Source: Vogesella margarita (lineage in GTDB: Bacteria > Pseudomonadota > Gammaproteobacteria > Burkholderiales > Chromobacteriaceae). Taken from it: a stretch of DNA of 64,000 bases. The DNA is taken from contig NZ_JAQQLE010000004.1 in NCBI RefSeq assembly GCF_028548475.1, positions 1 to 64,000 on the forward strand, in the 5' to 3' direction. Of this stretch, positions 12,151-62,470 are shown in pieces. Each line of letters starts with the position of its first letter. The first letter of the stretch is position 1. The position numbers and the translations under genes are program-made. A model generated the notes under the pieces. It was not told where the DNA came from and searched no databases. It saw nothing but the letters and a program-made list of their open reading frames with translations.

Positions 12151-12274
12151 GGTTTGTCCCACCTTGAAATGACAACAAGCCCGCCGCCGTGGATAACGGC
12201 GCGGGCATCACTCTCCACCGCAATGGAGGGTCGGGATTTTGAAGGGGGAACGAAAGACAGTAAAGAAGATTCTT

Positions 12275-12416
12275 AGAGCGTGTTCATGATCTAGCGAGCT
12301 AGAGCGAGACAAGGCGAAAACGGCTGAGGAAGCGGAGTTGACATGGGGTCAATGAGCATTCCGAAGCCGTTTTCAACGCAGTATCGCCGAAGCGCAGCAG
12401 ATCGTGAACAGGCGCT
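12275..12416. repeat. MITE-like palindromic element, copy 1
   Basis: About 142 bp bounded by AGAGCGTGTTCA and TGAACAGGCGCT, imperfect inverted repeats. Inside, AAAACGGCT (12317-12325) pairs with AGCCGTTTT (12365-12373), and TTGAC (12338-12342) pairs with GTCAA (12348-12352). The same architecture recurs at 49378-49518 and 62282-62433. It is non-coding and touches the argE stop codon. It may be a non-autonomous transposable element or a structured intergenic repeat. Confidence 0.8.
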
Positions 12417-13579
12417 TACAGCCCCGCCGGACACACAAGGCGCCCGGTCAGCCGCAACAGCCAGTCGCGGCACAGCGCCAGCTGCCCGAGTTCGACATAC
12501 TCGTCGGGACGGTGCGCCTGCTCGATCGAACCGGGGCCGCACACCACCGCGGCAATGCCGGCCTCGGCAAAGCGGCCGGCCTCGGTGGTGTAGGCCACCG
12601 CCTCGCCACGGCAGCCGTGGCACAGCGCGTCGACATGCTGGCGCACGCTGCTGTCGGCGTCCGATTCGAACGGCGGGCAGTTGACCAGCGGCTCGAAGCT
12701 GATCGCCGCCTCCGGCGCCACCTGCTGCATCTCCGCGCTCAGCAGTGCCGCGTAGTCGCGCACCGAGTCGACGAAGCGCTGGTGATTATCACCCGGCAAC
12801 CAGCGGCACTCGAACACGAACTCGCAATCCTTGGGCACGATGTTGGCCGCGGTGCCGCCGTGAATGACGCCGGTCTGCAAGGTGGTGAACGGCACGTCAT
12901 ACAGCGCCTGGCGCATACCGAAACTCTGCTCGGCATCGGCCAGCTTGCGGATGTGCACGATCAGCTTGGCGGCATACTCGATGGCATTGACGCCCTTGGG
13001 CGTCAGCGAGGAGTGCGCAGCGCGACCGAGCACGCGGCAACGGTAGTGTGCAATGCCCTTGTGCGCGATCACCGGCCGCATCATGGTCGGCTCGCCGATG
13101 ATGCAACCCTCGATTGGCAGCTGGCGCTGCTGCAGGTCGGCAATCAGGCGCCCGACGCCCAGGCAGCCGACCTCCTCGTCATAAGACAGAGCGATACCGA
13201 TGGCGCGCTGCAGCTGGCCGGCTGCGGCCAACCTTGTCCACTCTTCGACCAGGGACAGCACGCAGGCGATGAAGCCTTTCATGTCGCAGCTGCCGCGACC
13301 GTAGAGACGGCCCTCGCGCTCGCTCATGACAAAAGGGTCACTCTGCCAAACCTGGCCGTCGACCGGCACCACATCGGTGTGCCCGGACAGCACCACGATC
13401 GGCAACGCCGGACCCCCGATCACCGCGAACAGGTTGGCCTTGTCGCCGGCATCGGAAAAGGTCAGCGTGCTGTCCACGCCAAACTGCGCCAGATAGTCCT
13501 TCACCCACCGGATCAGGGCCAGGTTGGACTCACGACTGGTGGTATCAAAAGCGATCAGTTGGGCGAGGATGGTTTGCAT
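12416..13579 (-). CDS. argE: Acetylornithine deacetylase ArgE
   Basis: 387 residues, normal for ArgE. It is an M20-family metallohydrolase that removes acetate from N-acetylornithine in arginine synthesis. Metal and catalytic motifs are in order: SGHTDVVPVD (first metal His and catalytic Asp), RGSCDMKG (bridging Asp), SYDEEVGC (catalytic Glu pair) and the C-terminal metal His in EQAHRPDEYVE. The ATG lies only 7 bases after the flgL stop on the same strand, so it is probably read through from flgKL, an unexpected partner. A copy of the dispersed repeat lies inside the gene (13223-13236) and the MITE-like element begins at its stop. Confidence 0.92.
   Translation of the reverse strand: MQTILAQLIAFDTTSRESNLALIRWVKDYLAQFGVDSTLTFSDAGDKANLFAVIGGPALPIVVLSGHTDVVPVDGQVWQSDPFVMSEREGRLYGRGSCDMKGFIACVLSLVEEWTRLAAAGQLQRAIGIALSYDEEVGCLGVGRLIADLQQRQLPIEGCIIGEPTMMRPVIAHKGIAHYRCRVLGRAAHSSLTPKGVNAIEYAAKLIVHIRKLADAEQSFGMRQALYDVPFTTLQTGVIHGGTAANIVPKDCEFVFECRWLPGDNHQRFVDSVRDYAALLSAEMQQVAPEAAISFEPLVNCPPFESDADSSVRQHVDALCHGCRGEAVAYTTEAGRFAEAGIAAVVCGPGSIEQAHRPDEYVELGQLALCRDWLLRLTGRLVCPAGL
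13223..13236 (+). repeat. Dispersed repeat copy inside argE
   Basis: TGCGGCCAACCTTG within coding DNA; on the argE strand it encodes TRLAA. Confidence 0.75.
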
Positions 13580-49039: not shown

Positions 49040-49378
49040 ATGCACACCCACACCTCTGACTTGTCGGTTTTCCCTTTTGATGCGCGCGGCGTGGCCAAGC
49101 GTTTCCGTCATGCAGCCATCTTTGGCGCGCTGGAATCGCTGAACCATGGCGAGCGCATGCGCTTCGTCAACGACCACGACCCGCTGCCCCTGCTCGGCCA
49201 GATCGAGCAGCGCTACGGTGGCCAGGTGCTGATCAACTACGTGGAGCGCTCGCCGCAACAGGTCGTCATCGACTTCACCATCCACGTCGCCGACAGCGAG
49301 CCGGCTCCGGCCCAGGCACCGGCGCAACAGCAAGGCGGTTGTGGCGGTGGCGGTGGTTGCGGCTGCTCCGGCGGCTAA
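49040..49378 (+). CDS. DUF2249-domain protein with Gly/Cys-rich tail
   Basis: 112 residues. The first ~80 residues match the DUF2249 pattern (FDARGVAKRFRHAAIFGALESLNHGERMRFVNDHDPLPLL, here with GERMRFVNDHDPLPLL). The tail GGCGGGGGCGCSGG carries three Cys in a Gly-rich run, which could bind a metal. DUF2249 proteins often occur with nitrogen-oxide or redox genes, but none are near here. AGGAG lies upstream of the ATG. The MITE-like copy 2 starts at its stop codon. Confidence 0.75.
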   Translation: MHTHTSDLSVFPFDARGVAKRFRHAAIFGALESLNHGERMRFVNDHDPLPLLGQIEQRYGGQVLINYVERSPQQVVIDFTIHVADSEPAPAQAPAQQQGGCGGGGGCGCSGG

Positions 49379-49518
49379 GAACGTGTTCACGATCTCGCGA
49401 GCTAGAGCGAGACAAGGCGAAAACGGCTGAGGAAGCGGAGTTTACAAGTAGTAAACGAGCATTCCGAAGGCGTTTTTAACGCGTATCGCCGACGCGCAGC
49501 AGATCATGAACAGGTTCT
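49378..49518. repeat. MITE-like palindromic element, copy 2
   Basis: 141 bp from AGAACGTGTTCA to TGAACAGGTTCT. The terminal repeats are complementary except at one base. The central stem is GTTTAC (49440-49445) and GTAAAC (49451-49456) with loop AAGTA. The left end overlaps the TAA stop of the DUF2249 gene. Confidence 0.85.
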
Positions 49519-49591
49519 AAGCGATACGGCAACGGGCCGGCATATTGCCGGTCCGTTTTGCTTTGTGTGAACGGCACACCAGCACTGCCAC

Positions 49592-60701: not shown

Positions 60702-62282
60702 GTGAACGTCAACAAGCACGCTATCAAACTCACCGCCGCCGCTGTCGCCGGCACTTTTGCTTTCTATGGCGCTTTTTCCTACTGGGCCGGCATCAAGGCC
60801 GAGGAAACGCTGACAGAGCAACACCAGATGATTGCGGCGATGTCGGTGTTCAAGGTCAAGTCGCACCAGTACCAGCGCGGCTGGTTCTCGTCGCAGGAAA
60901 CCACCGAGCTGGAATTCAACCAGGAACTGCTCGGACCCTATATCGGCCTGCTGCCGGAGAACGTGCGCCCGCTGTTCCAGGGCATCATCCGCTACCACCA
61001 CGACGTGGCACACGGCCCGCTGCCAGGCCTGCTCAGCGGCCACTTCAGCCCCGGGCGCGCCCGCGTCGAAACCACCTTCGACATGAGCGAGGGCACGCGC
61101 AAGACACTGCAACGCTTCTTTGGCGACGCCGAGCCGATCACCGTGGTCAACCACCTCGGCCTCGCCGGCGGCGGCGAGCTGAGCGTGTCGGTGCCGAAAT
61201 TCGACTACGAGGAAACCCTGGCCGGCGTGAAGATGACCTGGCGCGGTTTCGACCTGCGCCTGAACTACGCCGACGGCTACAAGGAATACCAGGCCGAGTC
61301 GGTGTCACCCGGCTTCGTGCTGGAGGCCGGCCCCAAGGGCCGCTTCAGCTTTGACAACATCCGCTACCTGTCCGACGTGCGCCCGGGCAACACCGGCGTC
61401 AAGCTCGGCACCGGTGAGCTGTCGGTGGCCAATGTCCACCTGAAGTGGAACGAAAGCATTCCGTACAGCATCAAGCTCAACGAGCTGATCCACCTGGTCA
61501 GCCGCGTACGTGTCGGCGAGTTCATCAACCCGAGCGGCGAATTCCGCCCGTCGAACGTCGAACTGAAGAACCTGAAATACCAGATCGTCACCAGCGAGCA
61601 GGAAGAATTCATCAACACCCGCGGCAAGCTGGATTTCGACACCTTCAGCTACAACGACAGCGTGTACGGCCCGCTGAAGCTGGACATCTCCGCCAATCAC
61701 CTGCACGGCCCGACGCTGGTGAAGCTGGACCAGGCCTTCACGCGCATCCCGTTCGAGGAGAAGGACCCGACGCAGCTGCGCAAGCGCTACATCGAGGCGA
61801 TCACCAAGCAGGGCCTGCCGCTGCTGATCAACGATCCGAAGATCATGATCAACACCTTCTCGCTGCGCATGCCGACCGGCGAGGCCAAGCTTGACGGCCA
61901 GATCGCGCTGCAGGGGTTGCAGGAAAGCGACCTGAAGACGCCGCTGGAATTCATCAAGCGCTTCATCGCGCTGCTCAACATCGAGCTGCCGCGCCAGACG
62001 CTGGAAAACCTGGTGGTGGCGCAAGCGCGCAACCTGTTCACCGTCGACGCCAGCGCCGAAGAGCAGCCGGATCTCGGCGAAATCGACAACCTGGCCAAGA
62101 GCCTGCTCGACGCCCAGCTCAGCGAGTGGAAAAGCCAGAAGCTGATCTCGGAGCAAAACGGCCAGCTGGCCACCAAGATCGATTTCAAGAACGGCGCGCT
62201 GCTGGTCAACAGCACCCGCGTCGCCCTGCCGTGGGAAGAAGAGGAAGATCCGGCGCCGCCGGCCGCCTCGGCCGCCCAGTAA
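60702..62282 (+). CDS. DUF945 (YdgA-like) family protein
   Basis: 526 residues. An N-terminal membrane anchor or signal segment (KLTAAAVAGTFAFYGAFSYWAG, ~9-30) is followed by a long periplasmic region of mixed alpha/beta with YQRGWFSSQETTELEF and HGPLPGLLSG, the marks of the DUF945 family. Function unknown; YdgA of E. coli is linked to the cell envelope. The start is GTG at 60702 (no ATG fits the family N-terminus). The C-terminus ends in EEEEDPAPPAASAAQ, a charged tail. Divergent from the desaturase gene. The third MITE-like copy starts at its stop. Confidence 0.82.
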   Translation: MNVNKHAIKLTAAAVAGTFAFYGAFSYWAGIKAEETLTEQHQMIAAMSVFKVKSHQYQRGWFSSQETTELEFNQELLGPYIGLLPENVRPLFQGIIRYHHDVAHGPLPGLLSGHFSPGRARVETTFDMSEGTRKTLQRFFGDAEPITVVNHLGLAGGGELSVSVPKFDYEETLAGVKMTWRGFDLRLNYADGYKEYQAESVSPGFVLEAGPKGRFSFDNIRYLSDVRPGNTGVKLGTGELSVANVHLKWNESIPYSIKLNELIHLVSRVRVGEFINPSGEFRPSNVELKNLKYQIVTSEQEEFINTRGKLDFDTFSYNDSVYGPLKLDISANHLHGPTLVKLDQAFTRIPFEEKDPTQLRKRYIEAITKQGLPLLINDPKIMINTFSLRMPTGEAKLDGQIALQGLQESDLKTPLEFIKRFIALLNIELPRQTLENLVVAQARNLFTVDASAEEQPDLGEIDNLAKSLLDAQLSEWKSQKLISEQNGQLATKIDFKNGALLVNSTRVALPWEEEEDPAPPAASAAQ

Positions 62283-62433
62283 GAGCCTGTTCAAAGTCTC
62301 GCGAGCAAGAGCGAGACAAGGCGAAAGCGCCTGAGGAAGCGGCGTTTAGCTGGATATAACCAGCATGCAGAAGGCGCTTTTAACGCCGTATCGCCCCATT
62401 GAGATCAGTCGCAGCAGACATTGAACAGGTTCT
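62282..62433. repeat. MITE-like palindromic element, copy 3
   Basis: 152 bp from AGAGCCTGTTCA to TGAACAGGTTCT (one mismatch). Inner stems: AAAGCGCCT (62324-62332) with AGGCGCTTT (62372-62380), and AGCTGG...CCAGC around ATATAA (62348-62364). These stems differ in sequence from copies 1 and 2 but still pair. The left end overlaps the TAA of the DUF945 gene. Apart from the terminator that follows, the ~300-base gap to the next gene holds nothing else I can name. Confidence 0.85.
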
Positions 62434-62443
62434 AAGGCCTGCG

Positions 62444-62470
62444 GCCCCGTATCACGACACGGGGCTTTTT
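62444..62470 (+). terminator. Rho-independent terminator after copy 3
   Basis: GCCCCGT and ACGGGGC form a 7-bp stem around ATCACGAC, then five Ts. It probably terminates the DUF945 transcript after the repeat. Confidence 0.8.

Follow-up and report, generated by a model that had tools for sequence, protein, structure and literature searches.

The window analysed here, a stretch of 64,000 nucleotides from Vogesella margarita, carries three copies of a small mobile element built around a hairpin core, and the pattern of covariation across copies and genera leaves us highly confident that the folded shape itself is under selection. The element is very likely an IS5-type MITE and a member of a large superfamily. 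The best overall explanation, which we consider reasonably probable, is that of an IS5-type MITE with a selected hairpin, to which an RNA action at gene ends can be added at low confidence.

Copies, limits and distribution of the element

The sequence-only reading had proposed a MITE-like family in which three copies have common ends and a common middle. All three are indeed present and share the 18-mer GAGCGAGACAAGGCGAAA (3 occurrences in the window, against 0.05 expected), and the covariance model finds 36 copies of the core in the whole Vogesella genome (35 by BLAST). Using the terminal repeats and the TNA target-site duplications to set the limits, copy 1 spans 12276-12415 (140 bp, plus strand, core at 12310-12389), copy 2 spans 49379-49517, and copy 3, which has a longer right arm, spans 62283-62432 (150 bp, plus strand, core at 62317-62396). 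Copy 1 is flanked by TTA duplications at 12273-12275 (plus strand) and 12416-12418, the latter being, on the minus strand, the stop codon TAA of the gene at 12416-13579. In copy 2, the left TAA duplication (49376-49378) is the stop codon of the upstream gene at 49091-49378, and is followed by the left terminal inverted repeat GAACGTGTTCACGATCT (49379-49395), which is similar to ends on the insertion sequence (IS) loci L081 and L090, by the conserved hairpin core (49413-49491; model R1, E 4.9e-24), by the right terminal inverted repeat AGATCATGAACAGGTTC (49501-49517) and by the right TAA duplication (49518-49520), all on the plus strand. The left TAA duplication of copy 3 (62280-62282, plus strand) is likewise the stop codon of the gene at 60702-62282, and the right one lies at 62433-62435 on the same strand.

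The terminal inverted repeats of the window copies are 17 bp long (n = 3), and the element measures about 139-158 bp, with a core of about 80 nt inside it. Copy number ranges from 0 to 88 across 13 Vogesella genomes, which fits a mobile repeat. By pattern scan, the element is present in Vogesella, Chromobacterium haemolyticum, Pseudogulbenkiania, Aquitalea and two Pseudomonas strains, and no match was found in E. coli. Spread by phages was rejected, as phage records and viral contigs contained no match to the element. The right arms of own-genome copies such as L012, L015, L018, L022 and L025 take three or more forms (short, CCCCATTGAGATCAGTCGCAG and GTGTAACGTTTCACGAAGCG), so that the subfamilies appear modular, with a degraded apex in some. 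A second palindromic repeat, GCGGCCAACGTTGGCCGC / AAGGTTGGCCGCA, adjoins copies L012, L013, L014, L023, L027 and L033.

Covariation in the hairpin core

The three window copies fold with z values of -5.1 to -8.0 as RNA and -5.1 to -7.5 as DNA relative to dinucleotide shuffles, none of the 200 shuffles being as good as any copy. The whole element, terminal repeats included, folds as one long hairpin, and the terminal repeats pair within each copy with a median local score of 13.5, against 6 for mismatched partners. The compensation described earlier for the central stem is present across the three copies (TTGAC/GTCAA in copy 1, GTTTAC/GTAAAC in copy 2 and GCTGG/CCAGC in copy 3). The second stem had been described as always paired, which holds in part: in the 49379 copy, AAAACGGCT against AAGGCGTTTTT has one G.G mismatch, and the compensated form AAAGCGCCT/AGGCGCTTT occurs in the 62283 copy only.

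Three copies alone are insufficient to argue for the fold, since many of the compensations within Vogesella mark subfamilies and arose only a few times independently, several of them once, and since the apex is degraded in one Vogesella subfamily. Changes at pair 68-78 number about five. A set independent of the core model, made up of 102 distinct full-length copies without gaps and drawn from 14 genomes, shows 96.0% pairing over the 33 inner pairs, against 33-42% in slid controls. The same gapless copies gave 17 same-branch compensatory changes, compared with a mean of 1.5 and a maximum of 6 in 200 simulations of a home-made tree null, on a tree of 140 sites that is poorly resolved. Among 91 aligned cores, 97.1% of cells are paired, 19 of the 23 pairs show changes on both sides, and both-side cells number 321 against 81 after shuffling, while slid controls collapse; since the model both guided the alignment and selected its members, these figures lean towards pairing, a bias that affects the gapless set, pair 7-105 and stem c less. 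Pair 7-105, outside the model, covaries (A-T in 49, G-C in 32), and stem c (5 bp, also outside the model) has 85 both-side cells, against 17-25 when slid. For 86 distinct cores, most of which come from other genera, we counted 93 same-branch compensatory changes against 7.5 under the tree null. Chance and shared descent are rejected by these nulls as sources of the covariation, and pairing is retained in most copies. The lower stems can even be wholly replaced yet remain paired, as with GGGGGTCTTT/AAAGACCCCC in L300 and ACAATCCTC/GAGGATTGT in L297. The earlier proposal that the covariation means that the fold matters is thus supported, the mismatch in copy 2 and the degraded-apex subfamily being the exceptions.

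In stem a, the outer A-T pairs hold their letters and the inner pairs change, and the internal loops mostly carry 1.5-2.0 bits, against 0.16-1.2 for the inner pairs of stem a. The near-invariant internal loops comprise tandem GA/GA, GGA/GA, AAC, CAAGGC and a bulged A. In the first loop G.A and A.G are kept in 81 of 86 cores, and in the second in 75 and 83, with at most three Watson-Crick cases.

Relationship to IS5-family elements and other repeats

Identical TNA target-site duplications flank 81 of the 130 extracted copies, and the insertion target has the consensus C-TNA-G. In Pseudogulbenkiania subflava we found an 850-bp IS (L081) with ends GAACCTGTTCAAAGTCT...AGACTTTGAACAGGCTC and a TTA target-site duplication, whose two ORFs match DUF4096 (PF13340) and DDE_Tnp_1 (PF01609) and which belongs to the IS5 family by NCBIfam (NF033580); the hairpin core was not seen in this IS, the one examined at full length. 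Ends of the GAAAAGT type bound stretches of about 904-912 bp around PF13340 matches in two genomes, and IS5-family elements with like ends were found for two of the MITE end types. The MITE identity suggested earlier agrees with the presence of terminal repeats and TNA duplications, with the number of copies and with an IS5-family element that has ends of a similar kind, and the shared ends suggest that IS5-family transposases mobilise the element. None of the PF01609/PF13340 transposase loci of the searched Vogesella genomes has matching ends, and a partner IS within Vogesella was therefore rejected; the MITE may be orphaned there, although draft assemblies may hide ISs. The own genome also contains an IS5-type transposase fragment without matching ends (L080, C3:273482-273703).

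REP and BIME sequences are likewise short palindromes behind genes, formed by a single palindrome that is tied to RAYT transposases and bears a GTAG/CGTC tag, whereas the terminal repeats and TNA duplications of the Vogesella element point elsewhere. The Correia/nemis elements also differ from it in size and ends. They are small palindromic MITEs located between genes in Neisseria (PMC10969869). MITEPsy1 of Pseudomonas syringae is also a small MITE linked to the IS5 family (ISPsy2), with terminal repeats and reported to transpose (PMC3189936). In a comparison covering size, ends and duplication, it differs in its length of 100 bp, its ends GGAAGGTCTGAAAAAGCC and its 4-bp duplication CTAG/YTAA. 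MITEPsy1-like sequences were seen by its authors in P. stutzeri, other Pseudomonas, Marinobacter and others, and the term secondary structure is absent from their paper (PMC3189936). The IS5-family ISs (NF033580; ISPsy19 among others) have the same kind of ends and the TNA-type duplication of the Vogesella MITE but are full-length and coding, and the ISPsy19 ends GAGGGTGTAGACAAAAT resemble one end type of the core elements (PMC3189936). The R0-R200 repeats of Pseudomonas fluorescens, compared here by description and not by sequence, are similarly MITE-like, stem-loop forming and placed tail-to-tail between genes, with no covarying core described in the part of the publication considered (PMC2718517).

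Insertion at stop codons

Genes were called with a codon-usage caller trained on the window, which replaced greedy ORFs (too noisy) and an intermediate GC3 method (79 of 130 copies at stops). Any TNA triplet reads as a stop codon on one of the two strands. With this caller, the target-site duplication falls exactly on a stop codon in 26 of the 31 scorable own-genome copies (84%) and in 63 of 99 copies from relatives, or 89 of 130 overall (68%), and none of the 130 lies inside a called gene. In 30 long-flank copies, mostly from other genera and with approximate boundaries taken from local alignment, the boundary lies 6 bases or less from a stop codon in 14. The element inserts at TNA, mostly on a stop codon, and the duplication restores that codon.

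Convergent gaps are enriched among the insertions (51 of 128 copies, against 8 of 53 gaps in the window), and divergent gaps are rare among element positions. Genes whose stop codon carries the insertion more often run into the right end of the element (57 against 32), a bias that lies in convergent gaps, so that the mRNA contains the minus strand and not the strand on which G.U pairs are favoured. Copies 2 and 3 lie between the stop codon and the apparent own terminator of the gene. The terminator-like sites at 49531-49557, just 3' of copy 2, and at 62443-62466, 3' of copy 3 (both on the plus strand), are intact and probably belong to the upstream genes, which indicates that the element is not needed there for termination.

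Possible origins and roles of the fold

Complementary arms do not by themselves require selection, as template switching in replication (quasipalindrome correction) can keep hairpin stems paired, as described for RNA hairpins (PMC8794818). Templated repair does probably occur in this family: locus L035 (1514-1567) forms an almost perfect palindrome, its 26-nt arms being 96% complementary around a 2-nt spacer, and has lost the GA/GA loops, and we regard it as a probable template-switch product; most of the inferred double changes also fall on one branch. However, template switching should convert the loops too, whereas GA/GA and GGA/GA have remained non-complementary. The own-genome set includes just one palindromic copy of this kind, and G.U is more frequent than A.C. 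We therefore reject template switching alone as sufficient and consider an account without selection on the fold quite improbable; loops that are frozen and non-complementary are our best argument for selection. The position at stop codons might, for its part, result from the transposase target (CTNAG-like) and the loss of in-gene insertions alone, the hairpin having no part in placement. The target consensus C-TNA-G agrees with this, as do the strict CTNAG sites outside coding sequence in the window, which are mostly stops (13, against 6 other non-coding) and imply an expectation higher than the roughly 41% at stops given by a weighted site-preference model, itself a rough estimate from one 64-kb window. 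The observed shares exceed the predicted 41%, at 84% for this genome and 68% for all copies, and target preference is silent on stem compensation, so that we hold it possible but doubtful as the whole explanation.

Regarding the level at which a selected fold would act, a cruciform or single-strand hairpin in DNA could help the transposase by drawing together the terminal repeats, the 140-bp element being stiff, which would account for the single long hairpin and for the within-copy pairing of the terminal repeats, and GA/GA mismatches are stable in DNA. Extrusion from double-stranded DNA predicts no excess of G.T over A.C on one strand, though, and leaves the frozen loop letters unexplained, while leading and lagging orientations number 19 to 19 among the 38 listed of 67 copies in one complete Vogesella genome, by which we rejected lagging-strand (single-strand) mobility; a DNA-level role thus appears unlikely. 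On the plus strand, G.U outnumbers A.C by 111 to 17 cells, which are not independent, and by 35 to 17 without pair 30-81, a near-constant G.U (76 G.U, 0 A.C); counted as events on the close-relative tree, the numbers are 37 to 25 and not clearly different. This excess fits a single folded strand and is shared by two RNA-level readings. By analogy with Neisseria nemis transcripts, which are processed by RNase III, the core might be a motif for a host protein or RNase, with a role in stability, in processing or as a small RNA. Loops that are non-canonical yet frozen (CAAGGC, GA/GA, GGA/GA, the bulged A and AAC) among freely compensating helices are typical of a recognised structure, but the core is without an Rfam match and the favoured insertion orientation places the other strand in the host mRNA, making this rather unlikely. 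The mechanism that we favour, and only tentatively, is an RNA-level role at gene 3' ends: when transcription enters the element, the core may stop transcription in both directions or serve as a 3'-end structure, and would thereby render insertions behind genes harmless, and copies keeping the fold would persist and spread. The constant outer A-T pairs of stem a, next to variable inner pairs, support a transcription stop; on the other side, many cores have a short T run on the minus strand, the loop letters are more conserved than a terminator requires, and the favoured orientation (57 to 32) transcribes the minus strand and not the G.U-favoured one. A consensus scan for Rho-independent terminators called the neighbouring sites and not the core, whose interrupted stem may escape such a scan. 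As a separate observation, the minus-strand apex TGCTCATTTACA of the window core copies resembles the boxA antitermination motif, TGCTCTTTAACA.

One core with several ends

The core model R1 matches 60 of 398 sampled Pseudomonadota genomes and 28 of 213 genera, a count that includes many weaker, unvetted matches in one family of small genomes. A known RNA family was rejected, as cmscan against Rfam 15 gave nothing relevant for the window (at gathering scores) or for seven other loci (at E<=1). The searchable literature yielded no description of the core, the sequence-string matches listed being all unrelated. A weak match to the apical hairpin (25 bits), which may be due to chance, lies on a Staphylococcus aureus plasmid (L374, 682-761), upstream of an apparent 23S rRNA.

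The plasmid matches in Halomonas and Pseudomonas syringae have the core in common and different ends. Overall, the core is flanked by the distinct end types GARCCTGTTCACGATCT, CAGGCCGTTGAAAAACG, GAGGGTGTTTACAAAT, GGARCCTCTGATTAACG, GGCTYTGTCTGAAAAGTCG and GGTTTGTACGAAAAGTCG, and by GAGACCTTTGCACGGTG, GGGCCTGTTAACACTACC and GAGGCTGTTTGGTGATTG, which come from single or few examples; all were sorted by eye, and some are possibly interrelated. Cores group by end type across genomes in 28 of 35 cases, with within-genome exceptions in 6 of 35, indicating that ends and core are largely co-inherited, with occasional exchange. We give about even chances to the view that one structured motif has been paired with several IS5-family end lineages across the Pseudomonadota and kept for a function of its own, insertion at stop codons making its spread nearly cost-free.

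MITEs are usually taken as deletion remnants of one IS, whereas here one folded core is found with several ends, so that it can be tested whether the core or the ends are the persisting unit. With many copies per genome, the family also offers a natural test case: its mismatched loops are constant and its helices change, which should allow a selected fold to be told apart from repair by template switching.
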